This document shows, piece after piece, positions 1 to 15,789 of a stretch of 51,923 bases of DNA. Location of the stretch: assembly GCA_001595385.3 (NCBI GenBank), contig LVEI03000002.1, positions 1 through 51,923 on the forward strand. The letters are read 5' to 3'. The notes under the pieces are model-generated. The model had not been told where the DNA came from, searched no databases, and worked only from the letters and a program-made list of their open reading frames with translations. Every line of letters starts with the position of its first letter. Positions within the stretch are counted from its first letter, which is position 1. Source of the stretch: Deltaproteobacteria bacterium GWC2_55_46 (GTDB lineage: Bacteria; Desulfobacterota; GWC2-55-46). Made by a program: the position numbers and the translations under genes.

Positions 1-226
1 CCACTTTCACCGGCGCCGGGAACAGGAGTCGCTCCAGGGCGCCATCATCCATCTCCGCAGGCAGGGGCCAGGAAAGCCCTGCCTGCGTCGCCCTGAACAC
101 GTACTCCCGCACCGTATTATGGGATACCGCGCAGGAACGGCTGACCTGCCGGTTACGGAGCTTCAACTCCCATTTGAGCCTCAGAATTTCTCTTATCTTC
201 CGCATGGACAACCTCTCGTTGGGCAT
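1..226 (-). CDS. istA: IstA transposase, N-terminal part (runs off window)
   Basis: This is the first 75 codons of the DDE transposase that cuts and joins IS21-family ends. Reading from the ATG complementary to 224-226, the protein starts MPNERLSMRKIREILRLKW and continues with NRQVSRSCAVSHNTVREYV, the helix-turn-helix typical of the N-terminus of IstA proteins of the IS1326/IS408 branch. The following AGLSWPLPAEMDD also fits that branch. A second in-frame Met lies seven codons in. The catalytic DDE domain and the partner ATPase IstB are not in the window, so nothing can be said about activity. Confidence 0.85.
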   Translation of the reverse strand, partial: MPNERLSMRKIREILRLKWELKLRNRQVSRSCAVSHNTVREYVFRATQAGLSWPLPAEMDDGALERLLFPAPVKV

Positions 227-327
227 CACGTTCCTCCTCGGCAAACAATGTTGCCTTGAAGGATACCTTTTGCCCGACTGGTTTATCCAGCGTCGTTGGA
301 AGGGGATCCCGGGCCGCCCTTAAAGCC

Positions 328-442
328 TGGTCAAATGGCGTAGGAATCGGTGGTCAAATTACTCCGGAATGACTGGTCAGTTTCGTCCGGAACGGGTGGT
401 CAGTTTGGAGCGGAATCGCTGGTCAGATTGGTCCGGAATACG
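328..442. repeat. Five tandem 23-bp IS21-end repeats
   Basis: Five units starting TGGTCA follow each other exactly every 23 bp (328, 351, 374, 397, 420). The second half of each unit contains a variant of CCGGAAT. IS21-family elements carry such multiple terminal repeats as transposase binding sites, so these are most likely IstA sites at the IS end. Confidence 0.8.
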
Positions 443-444
443 CA

Positions 445-694
445 TCGCAACGGCTCTGACAATCCATAGATACAAAAAAGGGGCGCTCAGGATGGAGAGA
501 AGCAGGGAATCCATGAGGTACTCAAAGACGCCTTCGGCGATGTCAAAGTAATGAAGAATTACCATCACAATGAATTCGGCAAAAGCGACTATGCCAAGTA
601 TCCTGCAGAATATGACGCCGGGCTTAAGGGGGGTGCCCTCCAGGGCAGGAACCTGTTTTAAGGGGTTAGTCTCATTGCTAATGGCTTCCTTCAT
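445..694 (-). pseudogene. Membrane sensor (histidine kinase-like) N-terminus, cut by IS21
   Basis: From an ATG at 694, about 83 native codons are read before the frame enters the IS end and stops at 377 with IS-encoded residues. The native part has two membrane segments (about residues 28-47 and 62-79). The second reads LMDSLLLSILSAPFLYLWIVR, the pattern seen just before the HAMP or PAS domains of many environmental sensor kinases and diguanylate cyclases. The signalling domains would lie on the far side of the IS, outside the window. The exact class of sensor is inferred; the truncation by the IS is seen directly. Confidence 0.6.
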
Positions 695-1019
695 GGCATC
701 CTATTTTGAAAGATATGAGTACAAAATGCCGCGTGTAGCGGAGACCTGCAGTTCTGTTTGCGGTCGCAACATGCAAGCCACCTTCCGAAGGTGTAAACCG
801 ATGCCTCAAAGATGTTCGAGATGAAAAAAGAGATAATCGCGGGGTGACTTAAAAACAGTTAGCGGGAGTTTGTAACCTGTGAGGCAACTTTATCGAATCA
901 GGACAAAAATCAGTGTCTACGCATGCAGAGGTGTTTTCAGTAGAGACTGCGACGAAACAGTTAAAAAAGATTTTTCTCTAGATCATCCTGTCATAAAGCC
1001 GGTCTCGATGTTTTTTCTA
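695..1019. other. Intergenic stretch without recognisable gene
   Basis: This is about 325 bp upstream of the disrupted sensor gene and downstream of the small gene at 1020-1253. I see no convincing coding frame, RNA or long repeat. A promoter for the sensor gene would be expected near 700-760 on the minus strand, but I could not identify one confidently. Confidence 0.5.
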
Positions 1020-1253
1020 TCATTTGTCCTTTAATTCTGACGGCACGTGATTCATCTGAGTTTTTTTGTAGCCTGCCAGTTTCTTGTTCCTCAGCCTGAC
1101 CTCACCGTTGTCTTCCTTATCGATGAATTTTATTATCCCTTCACCGGAGTCAAATGACTTTTCGAAGGAGGCAAGGGTCTGCTCGTCTACAGTAAAATCA
1201 GGCATAGCCCCCTCGCAGATTACCGTAAGATTATAGAATTTCTTTTTCATCAT
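1020..1253 (-). CDS. Small hypothetical protein (77 aa)
   Basis: I do not recognise this protein. It is a 77-residue charged protein (MMKKKFYNLTVICEGAMPDF...) with no membrane segment and no cysteine pair. The run GEVRLRNKKLAGYKKTQ is basic and could bind nucleic acid, but that is a guess. The gene starts with two consecutive ATG codons; the purine-rich GAGGA sits directly before the first, so translation may really begin at the second (1250). It lies 147 bp downstream of the HU gene on the same strand and might be co-transcribed with it. Confidence 0.55.
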   Translation of the reverse strand: MMKKKFYNLTVICEGAMPDFTVDEQTLASFEKSFDSGEGIIKFIDKEDNGEVRLRNKKLAGYKKTQMNHVPSELKDK

Positions 1254-1400
1254 TCCTCGGTCGCCTTTTTATTCGATTGAAATGTTTGTTGAGGCATAGA
1301 CCCTTCGGATACGGAATCATTGCTCCATAGCGATGATTTAGCCTCGAATAGTTTGTTGATTTGTTAATGGTCGAATAATCAAAGCCTTATACAAAGGTTC

Positions 1401-1685
1401 CTATTTCCCAAGCACCGAGTCCTTGCATGCCTTTGCCACCCTGAACTTAACGACCTTCTTGGCCGGGATCTTGATGGCCGCTCCTGTCTGGGGGTTCCTG
1501 CCCTTCCTGGCTTTCCTGTTCACAAGCACGAGCTTGCCTATACCTGGGATGGTAAAGGAGTTCTTGGCTTCTTTATAGGCGAGCCCTGCAAGGTTGGATA
1601 AGAGGTTCGAAACGTCCTTCTTTGTCAGACCTGTTTTAGCGGACAGCGCTTCAATTGCCTTTGCTTTTGTCATGGGTTTTGCCAT
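1401..1685 (-). CDS. hup: HU-family DNA-binding protein
   Basis: This is a 94-residue histone-like protein that binds and bends DNA as a dimer and helps organise the nucleoid or recombination and replication complexes. The sequence matches the HU/IHF fold throughout: an N-terminal helical dimerisation part, then SFTIPGIGKLVLVNRKARKGRNPQTGAAIKIPAKKVVKFRVAKACKDSV, shown here only to indicate the conserved GRNPQTG arm tip and the IPAKKV strand. An in-frame GGAGG lies upstream of the ATG at 1685. Genes for extra HU proteins are common on integrated elements, and the neighbours here are accessory, so this is probably the copy of the element rather than the main chromosomal HU. Confidence 0.93.
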   Translation of the reverse strand: MAKPMTKAKAIEALSAKTGLTKKDVSNLLSNLAGLAYKEAKNSFTIPGIGKLVLVNRKARKGRNPQTGAAIKIPAKKVVKFRVAKACKDSVLGK

Positions 1686-1796
1686 ACGGTTTGCCTCCGG
1701 TACGGATGATTTATTGGATGAAAATTTATCCTATCCGTAAGGGCTTGGCAAGGAGAATTTCAGGCTTGCTGGTAAGGCGAGATATAAGAGAGGAGA

Positions 1797-1830
1797 GGGG
1801 CTTGCGAACATTGCCTCGCACGCAAGCCCC
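1797..1830. terminator. Strong hairpin downstream of the 1943-2698 gene
   Basis: GGGGCTTGCG and its exact complement CGCAAGCCCC form a 10-bp stem with a 14-nt loop. It lies just past the 3' end of the minus-strand gene at 1943-2698 and before the HU promoter region. There is no clean U-run on either strand, so it may stabilise the RNA end rather than act as a full intrinsic terminator. Confidence 0.5.
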
Positions 1831-1942
1831 CTATTTGGATTTCAGAAAAACACGATAATAAAAACGACCTGCATCAGGGCGGGGATCGAAAACAGTGTTC
1901 CCCATAACAGAATCTCTCTGCTCGACGGCATTGCTGACCCTC

Positions 1943-2698
1943 CTATGTTTTTCTTTTTTTCTTGTCGTTCTTCTCTCCGGTCGCTTCCTGGTTTGCAGAG
2001 GTTGCGTCATTTGTCAGAGGAGGCCATGAGGTCTCGCCTGATTCCTGCCCGTGCTCCATCGCGCCCTGATTTATAAGTTTTTTGATGGGAGAGTCGTACT
2101 CGACCCCTATTTTTTCTGATAGCCCGGTCAGAAATTCGTCGAAATCCTCGATGATGCTCCGGTAGGCGCTGATGGACTCTTCGATTTTGTCGAACGGCCC
2201 TGTTGACCTGACATAGAGAATGTGGTTTTCCAGGATTTTTGCGGCGACGGCGAGTTGTCCTATCTCCTCGCTCCGTGGAAGGATTACGGCTACGAAGTTC
2301 CTGCCTTCTACGAGTTTCAGCTTTATATCCATGGGGTCGTTGAGCTCACGCCACCTTCTTTTGTCGAAGGAGTAGAGGTGGGGCGAGGTTTTGATGACGT
2401 AAGCCCAGATGCTTTCAATGAACTCGTCGAGGTTCCCAAGAACCTGCCTGGCGGTATCGAAGGGCAGAACGAATCCGACCTGCCTTTTAAGGGTTGTGAT
2501 CATCCTGTCGGCGACGAAAATCATCTGAACGAGCGCGTATCTCGCGGACGCAGGCTTGTCGGCCGGGATAATGCATACCGAATCTATATGATTCGTGATA
2601 ATGCTGAAGTTCTTTTTGCGGCGTTTCTCCGCCTTCTCCTTGATTATCTCTATTTCCTCCGGCGTCCTTTCCTTCCACTGTCTCTTTTCTCCGGTCAT
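1943..2698 (-). CDS. Hypothetical protein (251 aa)
   Basis: I do not recognise this family. The 251-residue protein is soluble, with a basic N-terminal 30 residues rich in E/K/R (KEKAEKRRKKN) that should be helical, a mixed central part (about 35-195), and a low-complexity polar tail ending NDKKKRKT. No enzyme motif or cysteine cluster is visible. Translation starts at an ATG preceded by AAGGGGG at a normal distance. It is the last of three minus-strand genes (NusA-like, 67-aa protein, this one) that probably form one transcription unit reading leftward from the 3650-3934 control region, which suggests it works with the NusA-like protein. That link is inferred from position only. Confidence 0.6.
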   Translation of the reverse strand: MTGEKRQWKERTPEEIEIIKEKAEKRRKKNFSIITNHIDSVCIIPADKPASARYALVQMIFVADRMITTLKRQVGFVLPFDTARQVLGNLDEFIESIWAYVIKTSPHLYSFDKRRWRELNDPMDIKLKLVEGRNFVAVILPRSEEIGQLAVAAKILENHILYVRSTGPFDKIEESISAYRSIIEDFDEFLTGLSEKIGVEYDSPIKKLINQGAMEHGQESGETSWPPLTNDATSANQEATGEKNDKKKRKT

Positions 2699-2724
2699 AA
2701 TATTTCCCCCTTTCTGTTTTTGAG

Positions 2725-2928
2725 TTATAAAGGGACCACCTGTATGAGCCCCCGTTTTTTCACGCCCCGAAGTTCTTTTCTGTATATCTCCATCGCATGC
2801 ACCGCATCCCTCGCATAGATTACGCGCGATAAGTCCAGCCGCTTTTTCGGCCTTTGATGGGCATAAGAACCGATTACCTTGAAGGGGATAAGCTTTGATT
2901 GACGATTGTCTCTGCTCTCCTCTGCCAT
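2725..2928 (-). CDS. Small basic hypothetical protein (67 aa)
   Basis: This 67-residue basic protein is preceded by GGGAGGT about nine bases before the ATG. The second half (FKVIGSYAHQRP... then RVIYARDAVHAMEIYRKE and KKRGLIQVVPL) has a strand-helix-strand look and loosely resembles the small archaeal/eukaryotic ribosomal protein LX/L18Ae pattern, in which a helix with ARDA-type residues is followed by a K-rich turn and a final hydrophobic strand. The resemblance is by eye only and may be chance. The gene sits between the NusA-like gene and the 251-residue gene on the same strand, in a probable operon. Confidence 0.55.
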   Translation of the reverse strand: MAEESRDNRQSKLIPFKVIGSYAHQRPKKRLDLSRVIYARDAVHAMEIYRKELRGVKKRGLIQVVPL

Positions 2929-3019
2929 GTGCCTTCCACCTCCCTTGTCTTCATATTTTTTTGTCTGTCCGGATTCATCGGACCTATTCCGGTCTCATCC
3001 GAAAACATGTGGCTGGTCT

Positions 3020-3649
3020 TCACAATCCCTTGATTTCGATACTTACCCCGGTGAGTTTCGCCGCCGCCGCGACGTTCTGTCCCTTCCGTCCGTAAAAGAC
3101 GGCTATGCTCGCATGATCCACATAGACCGTAAGGGCTTTAAGGTCATGAAAGCATATTACTTTTTTGACCGCTCTTTTCGGCCCCGGGAACAGGGCGCTG
3201 ACGGCGTATTCCTCGATATCGTCGGAGTATTTGACGAGGATTACATGCTCTGCCACGTACTGTTTGACTTGCGTAAGGTATGGCGCGCATAGGGCGTGCA
3301 CGTCTTTCATTGACATTTCGTTTTCAACCGCCACCGCCGCCTTGCAGAACGACGCCCCTGCGACCAGAGCAACTTTTTTAAACCGGATCTGTTTTTCCTG
3401 AATTAGAGGGGCGGTGAGGTACTCGAGAATTTTTCTGACGTATTGCGGTGATTTTTGGGAAAGGCTAATTCTGGCGCCCTGGATTTCGAAGACCGCAGCC
3501 CAACCGGCTTCCCCTACCTTATAAGCCCGGTTCGCGTACTTCCTGGGCAGTAATGCGAGCAACTCCCCGCCCTGAAGGCATACGAGATACGAATCGTAGT
3601 CCGGCATGGCTTTGACTACAAAGAAGTTGATCAGGTGTCCTATCTGCAT
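3020..3649 (-). CDS. NusA-like protein lacking the N-terminal domain (S1-KH-KH)
   Basis: The 209-residue protein lines up by eye with the RNA-binding half of transcription factor NusA. Residues about 25-85 (GELLALLPRKYANRAYKVGEAGWAAVFEIQGARISLSQ) follow the S1 domain pattern in which EALLPR, a GD-type turn and ISLSR/THP are conserved. Residues 90-145 occupy the first KH position but have lost its GxxG loop. Residues 145-209 match the second KH, including KYSDDIEEYAVSALFPG and the intact loop GRKGQNVAAAAKLTGVSIEIKG. The N-terminal domain that holds NusA to RNA polymerase (about 130 residues) and the acidic repeats are absent. In the family, these domains bind nascent RNA and modulate pausing, termination and antitermination. 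Divergent from the split sigma genes, it may give element transcripts their own antitermination. That role is inferred. Confidence 0.72.
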   Translation of the reverse strand: MQIGHLINFFVVKAMPDYDSYLVCLQGGELLALLPRKYANRAYKVGEAGWAAVFEIQGARISLSQKSPQYVRKILEYLTAPLIQEKQIRFKKVALVAGASFCKAAVAVENEMSMKDVHALCAPYLTQVKQYVAEHVILVKYSDDIEEYAVSALFPGPKRAVKKVICFHDLKALTVYVDHASIAVFYGRKGQNVAAAAKLTGVSIEIKGL

Positions 3650-3689
3650 ATCTCCCGCTAAAAAAATGAATTCATCCGTCTATTACTTT

Positions 3690-3733
3690 CTATTACCCGC
3701 CTCAGCAGAAAAAGTGCTTACGGAAGGTAATAG
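3690..3733. promoter_or_regulatory. Inverted repeat CTATTACC / GGTAATAG in divergent control region
   Basis: CTATTACC (3690-3697) and GGTAATAG (3726-3733) form an exact 8-bp inverted repeat separated by 28 nt. A further direct copy CTATTAC begins at 3680, ten bases (one helical turn) before the first arm. The site lies just upstream of the NusA-like gene and could be an operator for it or a looped site for a dimeric regulator. Confidence 0.4.
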
Positions 3734-3821
3734 ATAAACAGAGCCTTTTTCAGGACAACAAACAACGCCAATAGGTTTTCGATGATGGTTTTTTTTTGTT
3801 TTTCGCACACTGGCGATCAAC

Positions 3822-3837
3822 CTGTACGGAAGTACAG
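3822..3837. promoter_or_regulatory. Palindrome CTGTACGGAAGTACAG (LexA-like half sites)
   Basis: CTGTAC and GTACAG are exact inverted 6-bp arms around GGAA, about 100 bp upstream of the split sigma gene. The outer bases fit CTGT-N8-ACAG, the LexA box of many proteobacteria. The host lexA gene in this window seems to use a different palindrome, so the site could answer to another repressor. Confidence 0.4.
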
Positions 3838-3934
3838 CATGGGCCGCATGGCCGCATTATTAATTAATTGTTAAGAAAAAACCTTCGATGAGAGATATGG
3901 GAGCAAATACATTTTTTAAGAAAGGGGTGAAAAA

Positions 3935-4408
3935 ATGAATGGAAAGAGGAATAGACCGAAGGCTACGGAAGAGAAAGATTCATGGCGTGACGTGCAGATC
4001 CTGTACGAGAGAATGGAACCAGCCATCAATAAGCTTGCCCGCAGGCTGATGAGGTTCGATGATACTTTGGACTTCGAGGATTTGAAGCAGCAGGCGTGGA
4101 TGGCGTTGAAGGCCGCCGTCACGAAGTACAGAAAGGGAAAGGGCGGTCAAATGAAGCTGGAGACCTACGCTTATTGGTACCTCCAGAAGCATTTCCACCT
4201 GGCAGTTGATGTTGACCGCGTGATTTACGACATATATGACAGGAACGGAAACCATGTGGAGTCATTGCGAGCCCGGGAATATACCCGGCGAAAAAAGGAT
4301 ATGCCGCCAGCACATACAGTTCGTAGCAGACGCGCGTTTGTGGACCTGACTAGAAAAGACACCGATGGAGACTGGATAGAAAACGTAGCTGCGGACAAAG
4401 CTGATTGA
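3935..4408 (+). CDS. Partial sigma-70-type factor: region 2 to 3 only
   Basis: This 157-residue protein reads like a sigma-70-family factor that stops before region 4. Residues 22-95 fit region 2: YERMEPAINKLARRLMRF, DTLDFEDLKQQAWMALKAAVTKY (core-binding helix and DLxQxxxxxL pattern), and KLETYAYWYLQKHF, which matches the FSTYAYWWIRQAI segment that melts the -10 element. The C-terminal FVDLTRKDTDGDWIENVAADKAD resembles the region 3.2 linker (SLD..., D.D, ...ADE) that precedes region 4 in normal factors. No region 4 helix-turn-helix follows; instead TGA is reached and a separate gene begins 26 bp on. A good site AAAGGGG precedes the ATG. Paired sigma subunits are known (SigO with RsoA in Bacillus subtilis). 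The same arrangement is inferred here. Confidence 0.72.
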   Translation: MNGKRNRPKATEEKDSWRDVQILYERMEPAINKLARRLMRFDDTLDFEDLKQQAWMALKAAVTKYRKGKGGQMKLETYAYWYLQKHFHLAVDVDRVIYDIYDRNGNHVESLRAREYTRRKKDMPPAHTVRSRRAFVDLTRKDTDGDWIENVAADKAD

Positions 4409-4434
4409 CGGCATAGACAATAGCGAGGTGGGCG

Positions 4435-5175
4435 ATGAGTATCGCTACTGTGGAACATGACGCTCAATTCAGAAAAGACCTACTCGATAAATTACTATGC
4501 AAGAAGGTTACATATCAGGACGTTAAGAGGCACAGGCTCTCGCAACGGGAGATGGAGTATCTCCATCTTTATGACATTCTCGACCGCCGCGAGTATGTCA
4601 GGTTGGTCATGCAGGGAGGGTATTCGAAGCAGGCGGCCTACAATAAATGGAGGAGGGTCGTCAAGGAGATCATAAAGGACTTCGACCCCAAGCCCCATGC
4701 TAACCTCATCGCCTTAATCAAAAAGAACGGTGAGGATCCGTCGGTATTGGAGATGTGGCTAACAGCCAGGTGTAAAGGCGGCATACCGGTGATGGACATA
4801 CTCACCTTCAGGGATTATATAGTCGATTTTCTCGGTCGCGTCAGGGACGATCTCTATGAAAAGAACACTTGTTTCACCCGCGAGGCAGCCAAAAAACTCG
4901 GAATGAGCCGTAGACAGATACAACGGCTCGCCAAAGATGGTGGTCTGCAAAAAAAGAACCGAGGCTTGTTTCCGGTGGAACAAGTGGTGGGTTATCAGGA
5001 GCGAAAAGACCTTTATCTCAGACAGCCTGTCATCAAAACGATTGATTCGTGTATTGAGAAGATACAAGAGTCAATCAATAGCATAGGGTTTTCAGTTGAG
5101 TTGCAGAGAAGCCTTGAAAAACTAACCCGTTTCATTAAGGTCGTTTCGGTCCAGGTTGACCGGAAAGCGACATGA
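4435..5175 (+). CDS. Sigma region 4-like plus second HTH protein (partner of split sigma)
   Basis: The 246-residue protein starts at an ATG preceded by GAGGTGGGCG, so it is a separate gene and not a simple frameshift product. Residues 16-82 (LLDKLL..., LSQREMEYLHLYDIL, GGYSKQAAYNKWRRVVKEI) follow the sigma region 4 layout: LPxRExEVLxLYY, a variable turn, then SxxAVYxRxRRAxKKL as the recognition helix. Residues 145-190 (CFTREAAKKLGMSRRQIQRLAKDGGLQKKNRGLFPVEQV) form a second, MerR/excisionase-type helix-turn-helix. The C-terminal third is helical. Together with the preceding gene it could supply a complete promoter-recognising factor, with the -35 determinant and an extra DNA-binding domain on a separate chain. 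The role is inferred from domain order and adjacency. Confidence 0.65.
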   Translation: MSIATVEHDAQFRKDLLDKLLCKKVTYQDVKRHRLSQREMEYLHLYDILDRREYVRLVMQGGYSKQAAYNKWRRVVKEIIKDFDPKPHANLIALIKKNGEDPSVLEMWLTARCKGGIPVMDILTFRDYIVDFLGRVRDDLYEKNTCFTREAAKKLGMSRRQIQRLAKDGGLQKKNRGLFPVEQVVGYQERKDLYLRQPVIKTIDSCIEKIQESINSIGFSVELQRSLEKLTRFIKVVSVQVDRKAT

Positions 5176-5276
5176 GGTTTGGAGTCCAAAGTTGACTGGA
5201 AGGCGACATGGGGATGTCGCTTTGTAGTCCAAAGTTGACCGAAAGGCGACATGGGGATGTCGCTTTGGAGTCCAAG
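5149..5276. repeat. 43-bp tandem repeat with internal hairpin (parS-like or operator)
   Basis: Two full 43-bp units start at 5184 and 5227, with partial units before (5149) and after (5270); the period is exactly 43 bp. Each full unit contains the palindrome GCGACAT-GGGG-ATGTCGC, a 7-bp perfect stem. The array begins inside the last codons of the preceding gene and ends about 70 bp before the ParB-like gene. Such a site next to a ParB gene may be a centromere or an autoregulatory operator. Confidence 0.65.
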
Positions 5277-5346
5277 ACATCCAAAACTGAAATTATTCAA
5301 TTTCATCGTTTAAGGCTTTGAAACCTTAAAAGGAGGGCTCTAAGCA

Positions 5347-6519
5347 ATGGAAAGAGGCAAAACAGTTTTCATCGAGACCAATAAACTCGTGGTAACTAAT
5401 CAACCAATGGAGTCTGCGGGGACTGAGGATGTGGAAAGGCTGAAGCAAAGTATAAGGACAATAGGTCTTCTATATCCTCTTCTCATAAGGTCTCTGCCTG
5501 ATGCAGACACCTTCGAGGTCCTTGATGGCCGGACCAGATTGGGGGCGCTTACGGATCTCGGTTACACCATGGTGGAATGTTCTCTTGCGGAGTCGGCGCA
5601 ACACGCCGGGATAATTCCGTATGATACCGAGCTGTGTCGCAGACATCTGAATGCGTCGCAAAGAAAAAATTTTGAAAAAGAGCGGAACGCATTAGCAGCG
5701 AGTTCCGTTTCCACACTCGTGGACCGCTTGATCCCGTCGTTGAGAGACAAGGCTTCGAGCATGCTGGAAAAATCGGATGTGACCAAAGAGGAAATAGATC
5801 TGATCTCGTCATGGGCACAGCTGTCCGAAAGCCAACAGGAGAATGCGCTTGAGCGCCTTTCATCTGCCGCTGTGGAGACCGCGGCTCAGGAGTATGAAGA
5901 AGAGCTCAAAGATCTTAAAGCCAGTAAAAAGGAGATTGAGGGAGAGCTGGAAGAAGCCAGAGCGCAGCTTAATGATAAGGAAAAGGAGTTTGAGCAAAGG
6001 CTCAAGGACTTCGCCGATGAGGCCAAGGATCGAGTTCAGGATATGCAGGAGAGCAAAAAACTGGTCATTCCTGATGACCCTGATGAAAAGGACAAGCTGA
6101 TAAAGAAAATAGAAAAAGAGTTGGCCAAGCAATACGCGGATAGCGTCAAGCATGCCAGGGCCAACCTCGAGAAGGCCAATGAGAACTACAAAAAGCTCCA
6201 GGCAGATCTGGAAAAGAAAAAAGACGATATCGAGTCACTTAAGCGTCAGCTGAAGGATACGAAGGCTGAGAACGAGAGTTATGAGGAAAATATTGCACTT
6301 TTTAGGGAGACGCTGGAGAAGGCCACGGACATAGAGAAAACGGTTCGTAAGCTCGAAGGCGTTTGCGATGACCTGAGGACGCTTAACGAGCTGATAATCG
6401 AGCGCAAGTTCACCTTGAAAGAGATCGGCGTCCCGAAGAAGAACCAGATCAAGAAGGTGCTGACCGATATACAGGACGCGTTGTCAGGCACCATGGATAT
6501 CGTGAAGGATATCGCATGA
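5347..6519 (+). CDS. ParB-like N-terminal domain with long coiled coil
   Basis: Residues about 12-80 match the ParB/RepB/Spo0J nuclease-like domain (EDVERLKQSIRTIGLLYPLLIRSL, then FEVLDGRTRLGALTDLGYTMVEC), the part that in ParB proteins binds CTP or shares the Srx fold. From about 175 to 330 there is an almost unbroken E/K-rich coiled coil (YEEELKDLKASKKEIEGELEEAR...), unusual for plasmid ParB, which normally has a central HTH and a short dimer domain. The 390-residue protein therefore may be a DNA-organising or regulatory relative rather than a classical partition protein. No ParA gene is next to it. The start is supported by AAAGGAGGG ten bases before ATG, and the 43-bp hairpin repeats just upstream are a candidate binding site. 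Confidence 0.7.
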   Translation: MERGKTVFIETNKLVVTNQPMESAGTEDVERLKQSIRTIGLLYPLLIRSLPDADTFEVLDGRTRLGALTDLGYTMVECSLAESAQHAGIIPYDTELCRRHLNASQRKNFEKERNALAASSVSTLVDRLIPSLRDKASSMLEKSDVTKEEIDLISSWAQLSESQQENALERLSSAAVETAAQEYEEELKDLKASKKEIEGELEEARAQLNDKEKEFEQRLKDFADEAKDRVQDMQESKKLVIPDDPDEKDKLIKKIEKELAKQYADSVKHARANLEKANENYKKLQADLEKKKDDIESLKRQLKDTKAENESYEENIALFRETLEKATDIEKTVRKLEGVCDDLRTLNELIIERKFTLKEIGVPKKNQIKKVLTDIQDALSGTMDIVKDIA

Positions 6520-6667
6520 TGGCACTATCGAAGGCAGGGAGGGGGAGCTAAACGCTCCCCCTGATTTGGAGCGGTTGATAGAGAGGATAGGTGAAGGGCT
6601 GAAAAGAGGTGATATCTGTATAGAGATATTACCTTTGAATGCATCTTAAAAGTCGCAAGGATCGTAA

Positions 6668-6844
6668 ATGGCAAAGTCGATTGATAGTGTTTTTTTGGAA
6701 AAAACAAGGCAAGAATTTAGCCAGGCGTATAACGGTAAAATAAATAGGAATGACGCAAAGGAAATTGCTCGGAATGTCTTTGATTTTTTTAAATTAATTC
6801 ACGAATGGGAAATAAAGGACGACCAAAAAGGTGGGTCTAAATGA
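6668..6844 (+). CDS. Small protein upstream of recombinase (58 aa)
   Basis: A 58-codon frame starting MAKSIDSVFLEKTRQEF and ending FDFFKLIHEWEIKDDQKGGSK. The segment DAKEIARNVFDFFKLIHEWE follows a pattern I have seen in short proteins encoded beside recombinases and phage genes, where an EEA.EI..N...FF.LL.EWD helix is conserved. The function is unknown. It lies 73 bp before the recombinase start, and its stop codon is buried in the stem of the terminator at 6825-6857. Confidence 0.6.
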   Translation: MAKSIDSVFLEKTRQEFSQAYNGKINRNDAKEIARNVFDFFKLIHEWEIKDDQKGGSK

Positions 6845-6857
6845 CCCCCTTTTTTTA
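6825..6857 (+). terminator. Intrinsic terminator overlapping a stop codon
   Basis: AAAAAGGTGGGTC pairs with GACCCCCTTTTTTT around a TAAAT loop and is followed by a T-run. The TGA stop of the small gene lies in the stem, so the transcript ends almost directly after translation ends. The recombinase downstream therefore probably has its own promoter. Confidence 0.75.
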
Positions 6858-6917
6858 TTGTTTCGGAGGCTGAATTGTAATAAAATTTTCCCTAAACAAA
6901 CCAAAAGGTTTTTGGAT

Positions 6918-8387
6918 ATGCCTGAAATCAAAAAAGCTATTATTTACGCCAGGGTATCAAGTAAAGAGCAGGAAAAAGAGGGGTATTCCATACCCGCTCA
7001 ATTGAAGCTTTTAAACGATTACGCTTATTCAAACGGTGTTCTTGTCGTTAAAGAATATGTAGACGTTGAAACGGCCAAAAAGGCCGGTCGCGCCAATTTC
7101 AAGGAGATGATCAGTTTTTTGCAATCGCATGATGATGTCAAGACAGTTCTCGTCGAGAAAACAGACAGGCTGTATCGTAATTTTAAGGATTATGTAACGC
7201 TGGAAGATCTCGATTTGGATATTCATTTGGTAAAGGAAGGAGAAACCTTAAATAGAAATTCGCGATCTCATGTGAAGTTCATTCACGGCGTTAAGCTTTT
7301 GATGGCGAAAAATTATATAGATAACCTTTCTGAAGAAGTAAAGAAAGGGATGAGGGAAAAGGTCGCTCAAGGCGGCTTTCCCAATAAAGCTCCAATCGGA
7401 TATTTCAACAATAAGGAGACTCGTCGCGTAGAGATTGATAATCAGAAAGCTTTTTACATAAAAGAGATATTTGAACTCTACGCAACAGGAAAGTATTCCT
7501 TAAATATATTAAGAGAGAAATGTCTTAAAGACGGTTTTGTAACGAGAAAGTCAGAAAAAAGAATCAGCAAGAGCAATTTGGAGTATTTACTGAAGAATGT
7601 TTTCTATACCGGTCATTTCCGCTGGTGTGGTGATGTGCACAAGGGAACCCATGAACCTATTATCAGCGGAGAACTTTTTAATAAGGCCCAGGAGGCTTTC
7701 AAGATCCACAATAAGCCGGTAAAAAAGGGCATCGGAAAGAAGGAATTTGCGTTTGGTAATTTACTTAAATGCGGGCATTGTGGTTTATCGATTACCGCTG
7801 AAATAAAAAAGAACAAGTACATTTACTATCGTTGCACCGGCTTCAGAGGCAAATGCGGGCAGCCTTATGTAAGGGAAGAAGACTTACGGAGAAAATTCGG
7901 AAACGTTGTAAAGGCGATTCAAATCGGCGAGGAAAAGTTGGAATGGCTCAGAGAGGCGCTCAAGATGAGCCATCTGGATGAAAAGGCATACCATGGTAAA
8001 AAAATAAAGGAATTGCAGGCACGGTACAATAAGTTTCAGAATAGAATAGACCAGGCTTATGTGGACAAGCTCGACAAGAAAATATCAGAGGATTTTTGGC
8101 TGGTCAAAACTCAGGATTGGAAAAAAGACCAAGAGGATGTGGCTTTAAGGCTGAAGGCCCATCAAAACGCCAACATGAATTACATGTGGGACGGATTGAA
8201 GATCATGGAATTGGCTGAAAAGGCCTATGCGCTTTTCATGAAACAGGACGCCTTCGAGCAGGCTCGCCTGCTCAAAATAATACTTTCGAACTGCGACTTG
8301 AACGACGGAAACCCTTGTCCTACCTACAGAAAACCCTTCGACCTCTTTGCGGAAAACTCGAAAAAGAAAAAATGGCTGGGGGACTAG
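6918..8387 (+). CDS. Large serine recombinase (site-specific integrase type)
   Basis: This 489-residue recombinase has the resolvase/invertase catalytic domain first: KKAIIYARVSSKEQEKEGYSIPAQ with the nucleophile serine at residue 14, and VEKTDRLYRNFKDY, the E.TDR.xR motif. Then comes the recombinase domain (GFPNKAPIGYFNN..., YTGHFRWCGDVHKGTHEPIIS), a zinc ribbon (KCGHCGLSITAEIKKNKYIYYRC...KCGQPYV) and a coiled-coil tail. Such enzymes integrate and excise phages and mobile islands at short att sites. The ATG at 6918 is chosen because the conserved domain begins right after it; upstream codons overlap a terminator. AT-rich codon use differs from the core genome. The last five codons (WLGD and stop) lie in the tRNA-Gln fragment, which places its element against that tRNA gene. 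Confidence 0.93.
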   Translation: MPEIKKAIIYARVSSKEQEKEGYSIPAQLKLLNDYAYSNGVLVVKEYVDVETAKKAGRANFKEMISFLQSHDDVKTVLVEKTDRLYRNFKDYVTLEDLDLDIHLVKEGETLNRNSRSHVKFIHGVKLLMAKNYIDNLSEEVKKGMREKVAQGGFPNKAPIGYFNNKETRRVEIDNQKAFYIKEIFELYATGKYSLNILREKCLKDGFVTRKSEKRISKSNLEYLLKNVFYTGHFRWCGDVHKGTHEPIISGELFNKAQEAFKIHNKPVKKGIGKKEFAFGNLLKCGHCGLSITAEIKKNKYIYYRCTGFRGKCGQPYVREEDLRRKFGNVVKAIQIGEEKLEWLREALKMSHLDEKAYHGKKIKELQARYNKFQNRIDQAYVDKLDKKISEDFWLVKTQDWKKDQEDVALRLKAHQNANMNYMWDGLKIMELAEKAYALFMKQDAFEQARLLKIILSNCDLNDGNPCPTYRKPFDLFAENSKKKKWLGD

Positions 8388-8416
8388 GATTCGAACCTAG
8401 ATAAACGGAGTCAGAG
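8373..8416. repeat. Left attachment repeat (3' fragment of tRNA-Gln)
   Basis: Forty-four bases identical to 16677-16720, corresponding to the tRNA-Gln gene from the anticodon loop to the CCA end on the minus strand. Beyond 8416 the match to the tRNA stops, so this copy is not a functional tRNA. It marks the left junction (attL) of the island. The 3' end of the serine recombinase gene overlaps its first 15 bases. Confidence 0.92.
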
Positions 8417-8463
8417 GACTTTATCTGGACTTTCCCTAACATTCCCGAAACTGCACAAAACCC

Positions 8464-8493
8464 TTGACAATACAGCACCTTCCTTGATATTCT
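8464..8493 (+). promoter_or_regulatory. Candidate promoter for the integrase
   Basis: TTGACA (8464-8469) and TATTCT (8488-8493) are separated by 18 bp, about 165 bp before the integrase start. Arm-type repeats lie between this promoter and the gene, so integrase binding could repress its own transcription. No other good promoter is seen in the left end of the island. Confidence 0.45.
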
Positions 8494-8538
8494 CCTTCCT
8501 AAGCATACCCTGAGTTGCCTTCTGTTTCAGCTAAAAAA

Positions 8539-8637
8539 ACTGGACAGATGCTGGACAGAAAACCGGGCTGAGATAAACGGGCATTGCACACGAAGTTGTT
8601 TTTTTAGGGGTTGAAAAGCTGGACAAAGCTGGACAGG
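8539..8637. repeat. Arm-type integrase sites, left end
   Basis: ACTGGACAGATGCTGGACA at 8539-8557 holds two CTGGACA motifs 11 bp apart, and 8619-8636 holds another close pair (CTGGACAAAGCTGGACAG). The same 19-mer recurs at 16576-16594 near the other end. Tyrosine integrases of this kind use such repeated arm sites on both sides of the core. Confidence 0.7.
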
Positions 8638-8655
8638 CACCGTAAAGGAGGGTTC

Positions 8656-9876
8656 ATGGCACGATGGATAAAGGCTACTAAAGGCGTTCGTTATAAGGAG
8701 CACGAAACCCGCAAGCATGGAGTTTCAAAGGACAGGTACTACACTATTTTCTATCGAGTGAATGGCAAGCAAATTGAAGAAGGGCTTGGATGGGCCTCTG
8801 AGGGATGGACAGAGGACGAGGCAGTTGAGGTGCGAGCCGCGCTTAGAAAGAACCGTCGCAATTCAGAGGGACCCCGGACTCTTGCCGAAAAGAAAGCTAT
8901 CGAGGAAAAAAAGCGCCGGAAGGAGGCCGAGCAAAAGGAGCAAGAGGCAAGGGACAATATCACCTTCTCCGAGTATGCCCTGGGAGCTTACAAGGCAAGC
9001 AGAGACGAGAAAACCTGGACGCGGGAAGAACAGGTTATCCGTTTATGGCTTGAGTCCGTTATCGGTGCACTGCCCTTGAAGGACATAGCGCCTTTTCATT
9101 TCGAGATAATGAGAGCGAATATGGCTAAGGCCAATCGTGCCCGGCATACCGTCCGCTATGTTCAAGGGGTTGCCCGGCAGATATTCAATCATGCTATGGA
9201 GGACGAAAAGTTTACCGGCCTAAATCCTGCCCGGACTATTAAAAAGGGTAAAGGGAGGCTTAAGTTGCCGGACAATAAAAGGCTTCGCTTCCTTACAAGG
9301 GAACAAGCGGATGAGCTTCTCGCCAAACTCGCCACAATAAGCCCTGAGGTACGCGACATGAGCCTTATAAGCCTTCATACAGGCATGAGGGCCGGAGAGG
9401 TTTTTGGGCTTGTATGGCAGGACGTGGACGTTAATAAGGGACTATTGGCAGTGAAGGACACCAAGAGCGGAAAGAACCGGACGGCCTTTATGACTGAGGC
9501 CGTGAAGGAGGTTTTCAGGTCCAGGGAGCGCGGCTTGCCTTCCGAGCACGTCTTTAAGTCTACACGGGGCGGGAGGATAAAACAGATAAGCCTTACATTC
9601 GCGCGGGCGGTTGACGCGCTCAAAATGAATGAGGGAATTAAGGATCGGCGGCACAGAATTGTCTTTCATTCGTTACGCCACAGCTATGCCTCTTGGCTCG
9701 TTGAAAATGGAACGGACCTTTACACGGTCAAGGAGTTGTTAGGCCATAGCGACATAGCCATGACGCAGCGGTACGCGCACCTGGGCGAGAACACCTTACA
9801 GGCCGCCGTTAAGAAGCTGGACGCTACCCTACAGGCGCCCGGCAAGGTAGTTGCGCTGGCGAAGAAGGAGGGCTGA
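8656..9876 (+). CDS. int: Tyrosine integrase of the island
   Basis: The 406-residue tyrosine recombinase should insert and excise the island at tRNA-Gln. The N-terminal part (about 1-100) is a basic arm-binding region with a K/E-rich linker; the core-binding domain covers about 105-205 (ITFSEYALGAYKASRDEKTW...NHAMEDEKFTGLNPA). The catalytic domain shows R245 (HTGMRAGE), H338 and R341 (FHSLRHSYAS), H364 (LLGHSDIAM) and nucleophile Y373 (RYAH). The start at 8656 is chosen because AAAGGAGGG sits just upstream and a longer TTG frame would run through the arm repeats. The next gene begins three bases after the stop, so the two are probably coupled. Confidence 0.96.
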   Translation: MARWIKATKGVRYKEHETRKHGVSKDRYYTIFYRVNGKQIEEGLGWASEGWTEDEAVEVRAALRKNRRNSEGPRTLAEKKAIEEKKRRKEAEQKEQEARDNITFSEYALGAYKASRDEKTWTREEQVIRLWLESVIGALPLKDIAPFHFEIMRANMAKANRARHTVRYVQGVARQIFNHAMEDEKFTGLNPARTIKKGKGRLKLPDNKRLRFLTREQADELLAKLATISPEVRDMSLISLHTGMRAGEVFGLVWQDVDVNKGLLAVKDTKSGKNRTAFMTEAVKEVFRSRERGLPSEHVFKSTRGGRIKQISLTFARAVDALKMNEGIKDRRHRIVFHSLRHSYASWLVENGTDLYTVKELLGHSDIAMTQRYAHLGENTLQAAVKKLDATLQAPGKVVALAKKEG

Positions 9877-9879
9877 GAT

Positions 9880-10548
9880 ATGAGGAAGAAAAAAGAAATC
9901 ACGCCGTCTAGCAGCCAGAACAACATCATGTATGCCGTTGATAATGATGCCCGGATAGCCGACCATATCAGGGAAGTCAAAAATTACGCGACCGCTGACG
10001 ATGCGGTATTAAGCTGGTTGGTTGGTTGCTATGAGGAAGCTGTTAAAGACAAGAGACTCGATGGCCCCAAACACGCGGTGGAGATATTCTGGAAAAAGGT
10101 AAGCGAGGTTGCGCCGGATACTCTGAAAGCGGTATTAAACCGCGCCAGGCTGCCATATATCGAGCACGCACTGGATAATATAAGGCCGCTCGACTTCGAC
10201 CAGCTACAGGCCGTACAGGAGCTTGTGAAGATGAATCCGGCGATTCTGCGGCTGCCCTTTATACAAGATACTTTTATAAATTTGTTGAGGACGCATACAT
10301 ATACGAGCGAAGGTGGAGGAGATGAACTGCGTAATATATGGAAGGGGTTTTTACATACTCGCCCCTGCGGCAAAGTAAAACACGCACCCGATGCAATCGC
10401 AGACCTTGTAACAATGGCGGTTGAGAAGGGCGAGACACGGGTAAGCGCCTACGATACAGTAGCTTCAGGGCTGGGCGTTGGCGAGCGATTCGTCCGGGAG
10501 ATAGCCGGGGAAAAGGGTAAACGAGGGAGGCCGAAAAGTGGCAAGTAG
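9880..10548 (+). CDS. Hypothetical island protein (222 aa)
   Basis: I do not recognise this family. It begins three bases after the integrase stop and ends before a terminator. The N-terminal part is polar; residues about 75-140 are helical and hydrophobic (LKAVLNRARLPYIEHALDNIRPLDFDQLQAVQELV). The C-terminus contains SAYDTVASGLGVGERFVREIAGEKGKRGRPKSGK, in which ASGLGVGERFVREI looks like a helix-turn-helix of the kind that scans for host factors and GKRGRPKSGK is a basic AT-hook-like tail. A DNA-binding regulator of the island is possible but not shown. Confidence 0.6.
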   Translation: MRKKKEITPSSSQNNIMYAVDNDARIADHIREVKNYATADDAVLSWLVGCYEEAVKDKRLDGPKHAVEIFWKKVSEVAPDTLKAVLNRARLPYIEHALDNIRPLDFDQLQAVQELVKMNPAILRLPFIQDTFINLLRTHTYTSEGGGDELRNIWKGFLHTRPCGKVKHAPDAIADLVTMAVEKGETRVSAYDTVASGLGVGERFVREIAGEKGKRGRPKSGK

Positions 10549-10591
10549 AATAAACGAGTAACCATATTCAGAATAAAAACCTTCAAGTACT

Positions 10592-10627
10592 ATGGGAACT
10601 GTCAACACGAAGTTCCCATTTTTTTAT
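10592..10627 (+). terminator. Intrinsic terminator after the integrase operon
   Basis: ATGGGAACT (10592-10600) and AGTTCCCAT (10611-10619) form a 9-bp perfect stem with a 10-nt loop, followed by a T-run. It separates the integrase operon from the AlpA-like/primase operon. Confidence 0.85.
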
Positions 10628-10643
10628 TTCAAGGAGGTTCAAA

Positions 10644-10886
10644 ATGCAAGACGAAGTTTTCGAGCTTATGGCAAGGCAGCACGGGAGCCCGCTTGTTGCC
10701 CGCGCCGACATAAGCAAATTCACCGGAGGGGCGATAACTCCAAAATGGTGTGCGAATATGGATTCGCAAGGCACCGGGATTAAGGGCCGTTTCTTCATCG
10801 GGCGGCGCGTTGTTTATCCGGTTGCGTCGGTTATCGAATTCCTCAAGGCCCACGCGAAGGCGAGCTACAGGGGCGAGGCGAAGTAA
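10644..10886 (+). CDS. AlpA/MerR-like helix-turn-helix regulator
   Basis: This 80-residue protein follows the short prophage and satellite regulator pattern in which LVARADISKFTGGAITPKWCANMDSQGTG forms the helix-turn-helix and GRFFIGRRVVYPVASVIEFLKAH the wing and final helix. Relatives act as excisionases or as activators of integrase and replication genes (AlpA, satellite P4 Vis). AAGGAGG sits at a good distance before the ATG. The primase-helicase starts one base after its stop, so it probably heads the replication operon and may control excision. Confidence 0.75.
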   Translation: MQDEVFELMARQHGSPLVARADISKFTGGAITPKWCANMDSQGTGIKGRFFIGRRVVYPVASVIEFLKAHAKASYRGEAK

Positions 10887-10887
10887 C

Positions 10888-13161
10888 ATGGGCAAGCTGA
10901 CCCCTGACCTCGATATGGCTCGCCGTCACCTCCTCTTGCTCGATGAGGACGCAGCGGAATTTACCTTCCAGACTTTTCCCGACTCGAAGAAGGGCGGCTT
11001 GTCACTGGCGTGTAGTACTGGCGTTCTTCGCGGCACTCTTGATGAGTACGCAGCGGAATTTACCAGGCTACAGGCTCGCGGGGCTGGAGTATTCGTGGTC
11101 GTCAACAGAGGCGGGCGCACGAAGGCTCAAATCACACACGCCAGGGCTATATGGCGGGAAGATGATACAGGTGGACTCCCTCCTCTTCCTCTTGAGCCGC
11201 ATTTCGTTATCCAGACTTCACCAGGCAAGCACCACGAATATCTTTTGATTGAACCTTCCGATGACCTCGACACTACCGACGCCATAATGGAGCGCATGGT
11301 CGAAGACTACGGCAGCGACCCTCAAGCGAAAGACCGCTCCCGCGTTCTACGGCTTGCCGGATTCTATCATCTGAAAGACCCCGCGCACCCGCACCTTGTA
11401 AAGATTATCCATGAAGGCGGCGGGCTGCCGTACACCCTTGAAAAAGTGGCTGAGAGCATCCCGCCATTAAAAAAGAGTACAAAGGCTGCGGCTCGGGTAG
11501 GCGAGACAATTATCGACGGGGCGCGGGACGCTACTTTAACATCATTGGCCGGTACCATGCGGCGGCGCGGTTTTTCCGAGGCCGCAATCCTGGCCGCGCT
11601 CCGAGTAGAGAATCAAGAAAAATGTAGTCCTCCGCTCCCTGACAGCGAATTACAGAAGATTGCCAGGAGCGTTGCTCAATACGAACCGACAATCACCCCG
11701 GATGACGACTATGTTTTCAAGGCCGCCTTTGAAGGACAGAAAGGGGGCGCCTCTTTATTTATCCGGCTCAACAAGAACCGCTTTTGCTTCGACCATGCCT
11801 CAGGCGTTTGGCACACTTGGAGGACGCACTACTGGGAGCGCGAACCCCTGGGGGAACCCCTCAAGGCCGTCGATGCCGTCGCGGAACTTTTCCGGGGGGC
11901 GGCAGCGAGGTGCAAGGGCGAGATAATCGTACTCGGGCAGACTGCAAAAAGCGGAGACGACCGCGACGTCGAACTCAAGGCGACTATCGAAAAATTGCAG
12001 GCCAGGCAAAAGGCGTGTCTCACGCAGGTCTCTAATTTAAATTCACTCGGGTACAGGAAGCAAGTCATAGAATTTGCCGCGCAAGGCCCTGGGAGCCTCG
12101 GAATCACTGGCGAGGAGTGGGACCTGCACCCGTGGTTACTGCCATGCGCTAATGGCGTGGTGGACCTCAAGAGCGCGCAAATAAGGCCCGGTGCCCCTGA
12201 AGATTATTTAAAAACAATATGTCCGACACCCTATTCCCCGGATGCCGCTTGCGCTCGCTGGGAACAGACGCTATACGAAATTTTCGATGGGCAGAAGGAG
12301 CTTATCTCGTTTTATCGGCGGCTCCTCGGAGCGGCTATCGTCGGTGCGGCCATCGAGCATATCCTCCCGGTGCTTCACGGGATAGGGCGCAATGGGAAGG
12401 ATACAACACTGGAGGCGGTCTCCCATGTACTGGGGGACCTCGCCGGGCCTGTTCAATCTGAGTTGTTGCTTGAGCAGGGGCGCGCCCGGTCTTCCGCCGG
12501 GCCTTCCGCCGACATCATGGCACTGAGGGGCCGCCGTATTGCCTGGGCTTCAGAAACAAACGAAGGCCGCAAGCTGGATAGCGGTCGGGTAAAACTTCTC
12601 ACAGGGGGCGGGGCCTTAGTGGGTAGGCCGCCGTTTGGGAGGAGGGAAATATCTTTTCCACAGAGCTACACCTTATTCCTTCTTACGAATGCGAGGCCCC
12701 ATGTTAACTCCGACGATTACGCACTTTGGAAACGTCTTTTACTCATACCCTTCGGGATCTCTTTTGTTGATGACCCACAGGCCCCGCATGAGCGTCGCAA
12801 AATTCCGAATATGGCAGACACGCTAAGGCGCGAGGCTCCAGGCATACTCGCTTGGCTGGTGCGCGGTTGTCTTGCCTGGCAGCGGGAAGGGTTGAATCCG
12901 CCGGAGATCGTCAAGGTCGCCACGGAAGATTACCGCGAAGATGAGGACCTCCTTCTTCGCTTCATCGAGGACTCCTGCGAGGTTCACCATGATGCCGAGG
13001 TCGGGGCCGCGCTCCTTTACCAGGCATACACGAACTGGTCGGCGGCTATGAATATAAAGCCGATGAGCGGGACAGCGTTCGGGAGGAAAATGAGTGTGAG
13101 ATACCAAAAGGCTAAGGGGCGGTTGGGTGCTTTTTATACCGGCCTGAAGTTGGCTCTGTGA
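10888..13161 (+). CDS. P4-type primase-helicase (RepB-like primase, PriCT, SF3 helicase)
   Basis: The 757-residue protein combines three blocks. Residues about 55-190 resemble the RepB-type primase domain (GVFVVVNRGGRTKAQI, HFVIQTSPGKHHEYLLIE, SRVLRLAGFYHLKDP). Residues about 205-265 match a primase C-terminal domain (ATLTSLAGTMRRRGFSEAAILAALRVEN...ELQKIARSV). The C-terminal half is a D5_N/superfamily 3 helicase with Walker A at about 498 (GIGRNGKDTT), RRIAWASETNEG as the B region, and LWKRLLLIPFGISFVDD with the arginine finger. Such proteins start and unwind DNA at satellite, plasmid or phage origins. The ATG at 10888 is chosen because the upstream part of the frame overlaps the AlpA-like gene. 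Repeats just after its stop are a possible origin. Confidence 0.93.
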   Translation: MGKLTPDLDMARRHLLLLDEDAAEFTFQTFPDSKKGGLSLACSTGVLRGTLDEYAAEFTRLQARGAGVFVVVNRGGRTKAQITHARAIWREDDTGGLPPLPLEPHFVIQTSPGKHHEYLLIEPSDDLDTTDAIMERMVEDYGSDPQAKDRSRVLRLAGFYHLKDPAHPHLVKIIHEGGGLPYTLEKVAESIPPLKKSTKAAARVGETIIDGARDATLTSLAGTMRRRGFSEAAILAALRVENQEKCSPPLPDSELQKIARSVAQYEPTITPDDDYVFKAAFEGQKGGASLFIRLNKNRFCFDHASGVWHTWRTHYWEREPLGEPLKAVDAVAELFRGAAARCKGEIIVLGQTAKSGDDRDVELKATIEKLQARQKACLTQVSNLNSLGYRKQVIEFAAQGPGSLGITGEEWDLHPWLLPCANGVVDLKSAQIRPGAPEDYLKTICPTPYSPDAACARWEQTLYEIFDGQKELISFYRRLLGAAIVGAAIEHILPVLHGIGRNGKDTTLEAVSHVLGDLAGPVQSELLLEQGRARSSAGPSADIMALRGRRIAWASETNEGRKLDSGRVKLLTGGGALVGRPPFGRREISFPQSYTLFLLTNARPHVNSDDYALWKRLLLIPFGISFVDDPQAPHERRKIPNMADTLRREAPGILAWLVRGCLAWQREGLNPPEIVKVATEDYREDEDLLLRFIEDSCEVHHDAEVGAALLYQAYTNWSAAMNIKPMSGTAFGRKMSVRYQKAKGRLGAFYTGLKLAL

Positions 13162-13330
13162 CGGGTGTGACGGGTTTGACCCCATTTGTCATATCCTTGT
13201 TGCGCGAGAGTTTTAAAAAATGAGTTAAGGGAAAGAGTTACACAAAAGCCTCAAACCCGTCACAAGAGTAAAGGGAAAAGGCGATAACCACTTAATATCT
13301 AAGGTGTTTTTGGTGTGTGACGGGTTTGAC
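13157..13330. repeat. TGTGACGGG repeats after the primase gene (possible origin or operator)
   Basis: TGTGACGGG occurs twice in tandem at 13157-13174, then in reverse within TCAAACCCGTCACA (13251-13264), then again at 13316-13324; three copies extend to TTTGA. The first copy overlaps the primase stop codon. The spacing of about 90 and 60 bp and the AT-rich DNA between them suit an origin of replication recognised by the primase-helicase, or an operator for the genes to the right. Confidence 0.55.
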
Positions 13331-13354
13331 TGACCCAGCACCTACGGAGATAAA

Positions 13355-13621
13355 ATGGATACGGAAAAGGTGATCCCGGTACTTATGGCATGGGATTGGG
13401 GTGATGGAATTCACTGTATAACCTGGTGTGAACACTGCCGACGGTATCATTGGCATGGTCTTGGAGACGGCCACAGGTGGGCGCACTGTTCACATCCTCC
13501 TGAGACCCCTTTCATGGAGACGGGCTACATCATCAAGGTGGTGGGGCCGGTGCCGCCGGAGATAAAGAAGGATGCTGATAGGAGAAAACCAAGAGGCCCG
13601 GAGGTACCGTGGAAAAATTGA
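13355..13621 (+). CDS. Small Cys/His-rich protein (88 aa)
   Basis: The 88-residue protein carries WCEHCRRYHWHGLGDGHRWAHCSHPPETPF, a dense cluster with a CxxC pair and several histidines that should bind one zinc ion, followed by a basic C-terminus. I have seen similar small zinc proteins on prophages and actinobacterial elements, always without known function. The ATG follows GGAG closely. It is separated from the primase gene by the TGTGACGGG repeats and so may belong to a second transcription unit. Confidence 0.65.
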   Translation: MDTEKVIPVLMAWDWGDGIHCITWCEHCRRYHWHGLGDGHRWAHCSHPPETPFMETGYIIKVVGPVPPEIKKDADRRKPRGPEVPWKN

Positions 13622-13692
13622 AGAGACTACGGGCGGCCCTCTTGCGCTTCCTTTATAGCCTTCAGTGGGCGGGCAGAGCTTGTGGACTATGA
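13609..13692 (+). CDS. Possible 27-aa peptide
   Basis: A GTG at 13609, preceded by CCGGAGG, opens a 27-codon frame (EKLKRLRAALLRFLYSLQWAGRACGL) overlapping the end of the Cys/His-rich gene. The peptide is amphipathic and hydrophobic. The good ribosome site and overlap support translation, but the length is too short to be sure. Confidence 0.3.
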   Translation: MEKLKRLRAALLRFLYSLQWAGRACGL

Positions 13693-13840
13693 AAAGGAAA
13701 AGCTCAATGATATTAAGGGCTTAGGGGGTACACCGGGGTTTTCACCTACCCACGTCACGTGCGGATACCAAGGCGCGACCCCTAAAAACGTTTCAGTTTT
13801 GAAACTTGATTGCTCTGGTTGACAAAATAAGGAGGGAATA

Positions 13841-14432: not shown

Positions 14433-14475
14433 AGGCGGCCACAGATAAGCTCATCACGATGAGCGGGAGACTTCG

Positions 14476-15606: not shown

Positions 15607-15628
15607 CCCTATATTCTGGAGGCATGAA

Positions 15629-15778: not shown

Positions 15779-15789
15779 TCCACATGGCG

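Follow-up and report, generated by a model that had tools for sequence, protein, structure and literature searches.

An element-borne NusA relative reduced to its S1-KH1-KH2 RNA-binding part in Deltaproteobacteria bacterium GWC2_55_46

The DNA analyzed here, referred to as the window, is a stretch of 51,923 nucleotides (positions 1 to 51,923 of contig LVEI03000002.1) from Deltaproteobacteria bacterium GWC2_55_46. A NusA-like gene occupies positions 3020–3649 exactly, as in the initial annotation. It is encoded on the minus strand, the plus strand being interrupted by stops over the same interval, and its product is 209 amino acids (aa) long. Following it on the minus strand are a 67-aa protein without a Pfam family (2725–2928), a 251-aa protein that Pfam assigns to no family and whose homologs lie just after the NusA-like gene elsewhere (1943–2698, hereafter the partner), an HU-type DNA-binding protein (1401–1685; PF00216, E = 6e-23), and ORFs of 77 aa (1020–1253) and 105 aa (377–694), both without a Pfam match. 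A divergent intergenic region (3650–3934), in which a possible leader hairpin lies at about 3674–3743 on the minus strand, separates the NusA-like gene from a set of plus-strand genes. The first encodes a 157-aa protein with sigma-70 region 2 and without region 4 (3935–4408; PF04542, E = 1.4e-6), which scores above the Pfam cut-off (28.4 bits vs. 24). The second encodes a helix-turn-helix (HTH) protein of 246 aa (4435–5175; 51% to its counterpart in genome G014, discussed below). These two had been read as a split sigma factor. The region 2 half of that claim stands, but the HTH protein gave a sub-threshold HTH match in Pfam and no sigma region 4, and it is better described as a candidate for the second half. 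Two tandem 43-nt repeats (5178–5263, plus strand) come next, upstream of the gene for a ParB N-terminal-domain protein with a coiled coil (5347–6519, plus strand; PF02195, E = 1.1e-6). In G014, a 51-nt repeat is found twice (L036:15109-15210), just upstream of the ParB-like gene or at its start. The repeats differ in sequence between the two elements; in both they are candidate centromere or operator sites. A large serine recombinase (6831–8387, plus strand; PF00239, PF07508, PF13408) follows and is the probable recombinase of the window element.

The right limit of this element is a 57-nt repeat at 8369–8425. This is the left copy of a pair of direct repeats that stem from the 3′ portion of a tRNA-Gln (right copy at 16673–16729) and bound a second element (8369–16729). 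The second element encodes a tyrosine integrase (8611–9876) and a D5-type primase (10750–13161), and is a satellite or IME-like element adjoining that of the NusA-like gene. On the left, the element ends in repeated sequence at the start of the contig. The repeat copy at 1–444 is identical to G000:C1:312343-312786 in the same genome (G000), interrupts the element, and resembles one end of an IS21-type element. Contig C1 encodes, at its right end (L045), two proteins that by eye are ParM-like and Cas4-like and share 66% and 69% identity with G014 element proteins, with AbiE-like and efflux-type neighbors, also by eye. This end is probably the rest of the window element. The element neighbors in the window and these relatives of the G014 element confirm the accessory-element setting given in the initial annotation. 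Searches of the window's genome for TraH and TraU found neither. Thus, the window element is a fragment or remnant of an integrative conjugative element, or a mobilizable form.

The protein had been described as the RNA-binding half of NusA (S1-KH-KH) lacking the polymerase-binding N-terminal domain, and the profile matches bear this out. The NCBIfam model for NusA (TIGR01953) matched with an e-value of 6e-14 over profile positions 152–336 of 340, scoring far below the family cut-off (51.8 bits vs. 253.4). A single-sequence search matched the PDB NusA structure 2asb (E = 4.6e-8), and a family profile matched 4mtn (E = 5.7e-16). Profile-profile comparison with a two-sequence chromosomal NusA profile gave a probability of 99.2%, the aligned NusA residues being approximately 131–342. 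The S1, KH1 and KH2 parts of bacterial NusA are all present, S1 being the weakest of the three. The match begins only at position 152 of TIGR01953, and the frame measures 219 aa from stop to stop, so there can be no in-frame polymerase-binding N-terminal domain. Alignments also support the earlier observation that the first KH domain has lost its GxxG loop and that the second retains one (GRKG). In Pfam, the protein gave sub-threshold matches only, to KH_5, a NusA-type KH (0.041), and to the unrelated DnaGprimase_HBD (0.03); an NGN/KOW match was absent even at E ≤ 10. An AlphaFold prediction made with three sequences failed, at a mean pLDDT of 39, and the S1/KH fold proposed for the protein is backed by its sequence-profile matches to NusA and not by the structural model.

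Comparison with the chromosomal NusA of the same genome, a check proposed with the initial annotation, shows two separate genes. The normal NusA is a full protein of 437 aa (G000:C1:571849), encoded in what is presumably a nusA-infB region, and is 29% identical to the NusA-like protein. The NusA-like gene is a second locus, on contig C2 and not on C1. We use the name SKK for NusA relatives that are carried by elements and retain only S1-KH1-KH2, the RNA-binding module. SKK shares with bacterial NusA the order of the three parts, the match over residues ~131–342 and the KH2 loop. It differs in having neither the N-terminal domain nor a long C-terminal extension, in the loss of the KH1 loop, in forming a separate clade, and in its mobile-element setting. 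Archaeal NusA-like proteins are likewise a free-standing NusA KH pair, and their model (TIGR01952) matched residues 126–207 with E = 0.002 (18.5 bits vs. a cut-off of 74.35). In contrast to these KH-KH proteins, SKK is bacterial, has S1 in front, and matches bacterial NusA far better.

The short genes form a lineage of their own. We built a 26-row tree from rows picked among the sequences fetched; the partial sequences of G032, G183, G356 and G446, the other copies of genus g271 (discussed below) and most chromosomal NusAs were excluded. In this tree, 13 short-family rows and 13 chromosomal NusA rows are split by a branch with 100/100 support. GxxG is present in KH1 of all 13 chromosomal rows and in none of the 13 short-family rows, whereas the G-x-x-G of KH2 is kept in 12 of the 13 and lost in G467. 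Between the window gene and its G014 homolog, dN/dS is 0.152 (209 codons, dS 0.89), with values of 0.06 for S1, 0.14 for KH1 and 0.31 for KH2. Three g271 genes gave 0.099–0.146 among themselves; over these four pairs the range is 0.10–0.15. The NusA-like gene is thus part of a separate line of NusA relatives that is borne by elements and maintained by selection. A pseudogene, or a piece of chromosomal nusA that was caught by a mobile element and is decaying, would account for a protein shorter than NusA and for the broken copies in G032 and G446. Such decay is rejected by the dN/dS of 0.10–0.15 in the four pairs, the separate clade and an architecture common to several families, and we regard it as extremely improbable.

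Among 97 relatives, the window's own genome counted, the only close homologs were that of G014 (79% identical) and the copy in G032, which is broken after residue ~69; a scan of species-genome contigs returned the same two records (MGPQ01000005.1 and WGFM01000004.1). With the 251-aa partner as bait, 6 of 395 genomes of the phylum were found. NusA-like genes were seen by eye beside the bait in G198, G278 and G183, and a profile search confirmed those of G198, G278 and, later, G431. The short-protein profile itself matched 8 of the 395 genomes at E ≤ 1e-20. By lineage, the short protein occurs in 3/48 genomes of the window's own order, in 1/23 of the class of G198, and in 17/46 of the class of G278. 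The other 36 matches in the own order look as chromosomal nusA should, with frames of 349–508 aa and an alignment that begins at position 34 of the model; the frames of short-family matches are 88–265 aa.

The 17 genomes include all 12 of genus g271 (G442–G453), one of which (G446) has two internal TAG codons in the gene. The six g271 loci that were read (G443, G445, G450–G453) are chromosomal, with a gene for a 163–166-aa protein upstream and one for a small membrane protein downstream. The small membrane protein of G450 is homologous to a protein of the G014 transfer cluster (E = 7e-14). A TrbI-like name for it was considered and dropped, Pfam giving no support. There was no TraC match on the contigs of these six loci, and no type IV secretion system (T4SS) gene beside the NusA-like gene. 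In this genus it looks like an element gene that has settled in the chromosome.

Elsewhere, the NusA-like gene travels with its partner. In seven of the seven element loci that have an intact copy and a readable downstream region (window, G014, G198, G278, G431, G458 and G467), the next gene on the same strand encodes a partner of ~215–259 aa, counting past one small ORF that lies between the two in the window and G014. This small ORF in G014 (L036:17443-17784) resembles the window's 67-aa protein by eye. The partners proved homologous, the G458 copy being matched by eye to that of G278. Pfam had no model for the window copy of the partner, and NCBIfam had none for those of G198 and G431. A partner is also present in G183, where an ORF with an RRXRR domain (L062:2443-3651, PF14239), presumably IscB-like, lies between it and the NusA-like gene. 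A sigma region 2 protein was identified in the same element in five of the seven partner loci, by profile in the window, G198 and G431, and by eye in G014 and G278.

The G014 element is integrated beside a tRNA-Ala and carries a tyrosine-integrase-type gene (by eye) and ParB-like, HTH, sigma-type, NusA-like and 259-aa partner genes. The core common to the window and G014 consists of the partner, small ORF and NusA-like genes and, divergently, the sigma region 2, HTH and ParB-like genes; in the window the large serine recombinase comes after this core. Farther on, G014 encodes TraG_N (E = 3e-58), TraH (E = 2e-80) and TraU (E = 4e-102), on the strand opposite to the NusA-like and partner genes. 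In G198, TraB (E = 7.9e-46) and TraC (E = 6e-59) follow downstream on the same strand. A reverse-transcriptase-like ORF of group II intron type by eye (L063:11673-13106) lies between TraB and a DsbC-like gene there. In G458, a TraC gene scoring 634.7 bits, above the cut-off of its model, lies ~11 kb farther along the same strand, and in G467 the downstream genes are of DsbC and OmpA type, with a pilin-like gene by eye. Thus, the NusA-like gene stands ahead of F-type transfer genes in G198 and G458, and probably in G467.

The company of ParB-like, HU, SSB-type (by eye) and SLT-type genes around the NusA-like gene in some elements could also suggest an accessory protein that binds nucleic acid in DNA transfer or partition, such as one that handles single-stranded DNA during conjugation. 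Binding to single-stranded DNA is within the capacity of KH and S1/OB-type folds. Every curated match that rises above noise is nevertheless to the transcription factor NusA, and the chromosomal copies of g271 have no adjacent transfer system, so we consider this role quite improbable.

The region ahead of the gene was searched for signals in the RNA. The leaders of the window and of G014 can each be folded into a hairpin, one G-C pair being exchanged for G-U between them; the z-scores are weak (-2.0 and -1.3), and those of other leaders are +0.71 (G431) and -0.27 (G198). No boxA-like element was established, and Rfam gave no match in window positions 1–9000. When the window was scanned for terminators and promoters, the results were no higher than in shuffled sequences. 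The GTAATAGA motif occurs three times in the window against 0.77 expected, each time in the leader; L036 has four against 0.32 expected, only one of them in the leader. In G198, positions 7000–9400 contain eight terminator-like sites against 3.2 expected, which we take as a lead only; one of them, a hairpin at L063:7307-7326, lies ~80 nt ahead of the NusA-like gene.

SKK might instead act after transcription, as a regulator that binds element mRNAs, perhaps including its own leader hairpin, and controls their translation or stability with no part in elongation. An RNA-binding architecture with no polymerase-binding domain would suit this role, as would the predicted pI of 8.5–9.9 in 13/13 family members and a hairpin that can be drawn in both the window and G014 across the one base-pair exchange. 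However, the best profile matches are to NusA only, the sigma-type neighbor points to transcription, and the hairpin z-scores are weak where they are not close to zero or positive (G198 and G431). We find this reading rather doubtful.

The N-terminal domain of NusA binds the flap tip helix and the alpha CTD of RNA polymerase, and S1-KH1-KH2 is its RNA-binding module (PMC7171158). The most likely reading, to which we give a probability of about 0.42, is that SKK is an element-specific elongation (antitermination) factor that binds nascent RNA and does without the polymerase anchor of NusA. SKK would bind nascent element RNA through S1 and KH2, and would be brought to RNA polymerase by that RNA or by the partner, replacing the route through the N-terminal domain; alternatively, a free module could reach the polymerase through host NusA. 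Polymerase that has initiated with the sigma factor of the element might then be carried through the long transfer operon, in part at least because SKK displaces host NusA from the transcript. This idea of an RNA-guided elongation factor specific to an element with its own sigma is drawn from the precedents of dedicated factors: RfaH, conAn, the NusG paralogues and LoaP. Long transfer operons are served by RfaH in F-like plasmids and by conAn in pLS20-type plasmids, and the same 2022 article states that RfaH is the only such system known for Gram-negative conjugation operons (PMC8955417). NusG paralogues in tra operons have been proposed as antiterminators (PMC7593976). Like these specialized paralogues (RfaH, LoaP, UpxY, plasmid-borne NusG-SP), SKK would be a dedicated copy of an elongation factor for long xenogeneic operons, tra included; unlike them, it derives from NusA and not NusG, with no NGN/KOW match. 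conAn is comparable as an element-encoded system that heads a long conjugation operon, a place that SKK has in G198 and G458 and probably in G467. It differs in consisting of protein and RNA and in belonging to Gram-positive plasmids; SKK is likened to it by description and is known from protein genes.

The initial annotation had suggested an element-specific antiterminator or an anti-NusA competitor. The position at the head of F-type transfer operons in G198, G458 and probably G467 is consistent with this suggestion, as are, by analogy, RfaH, LoaP and conAn. A universal link to transfer operons did not hold up. In G014 the transfer genes run on the other strand from SKK and its partner, so SKK cannot simply lead the transfer operon there. 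Neither TraH nor TraU turned up in the genome of the window, yet the gene is under purifying selection, and all 12 g271 genomes carry SKK, with no T4SS gene alongside in the six loci read. The weak leader hairpin and the additional loss of the KH2 loop in G467 also speak against an elongation factor.

In its other form, the competitor idea makes SKK purely a decoy, which would vie with host NusA for nascent RNA and weaken NusA-stimulated pausing and termination, cell-wide or at the element, without specific recruitment. The RNA-binding part is kept and the domain that holds the polymerase is absent, as such a decoy would have it. LoaP antagonizes NusA and a leader hairpin is essential for its antitermination, and NusA antagonism thus suffices for antitermination (PMC12691694). 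A general inhibitor of this sort is, however, unlikely. KH1, part of the RNA-binding surface of NusA, is altered in 13/13 family members, which may therefore bind other RNA; conservation of the partner gene points to a dedicated complex; and retention in 12/12 g271 genomes would be odd.

We keep to SKK as a candidate elongation factor of the element. It lacks three defining features of NusA (the N-terminal domain, the KH1 loop and a score at family level) and may work like the specialized elongation factors. More broadly, and only tentatively, mobile elements with F-type conjugation might carry their own transcription package, made up of a split sigma factor, SKK and a partner standing in for the N-terminal domain of NusA. 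This would be the NusA-side counterpart of the RfaH/LoaP-type NusG paralogues, with one genus having taken SKK over as a chromosomal regulator. Specialized copies of NusG are well known. Among open-access papers, searched by title and the beginning of the abstract, none described a specialized copy of NusA, whether a paralogue reduced to S1-KH-KH or one from a conjugative element. A selected, free S1-KH-KH module without its anchor bears on what the RNA-binding half of NusA does alone, and SKK raises the question of whether antitermination systems of their own exist in the conjugative elements of bacteria other than enterobacteria and Gram-positives.

Searches of other collections gave little. 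Viral contigs held no relative when P0001, the chromosomal NusA, L063 or A8 was the query, and PHROGs gave no match to the NusA-like protein; a prophage gene was rejected on these grounds. Sixteen phage records matched the NusA-like query, one of them covering at least 80% of it. That one, Pseudomonas phage Y6 in a record marked UNVERIFIED, has a full bacterial NusA of 493 aa among other bacterial genes, and this reads as host DNA. A defence system was also considered and set aside: PADLOC returned nothing for the NusA-like or partner protein, and weak matches for the sigma and HTH proteins. The plasmid matches are low-identity NusA, the one that was opened (Neochlamydia) being a full nusA, and the window's sigma protein had no match among plasmids. 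One further genome of the same genus, G004, has two full-length NusA frames, of 433 and 437 aa, at L007 (G004:C41) and G004:C153, which could reflect contamination or a true second copy.
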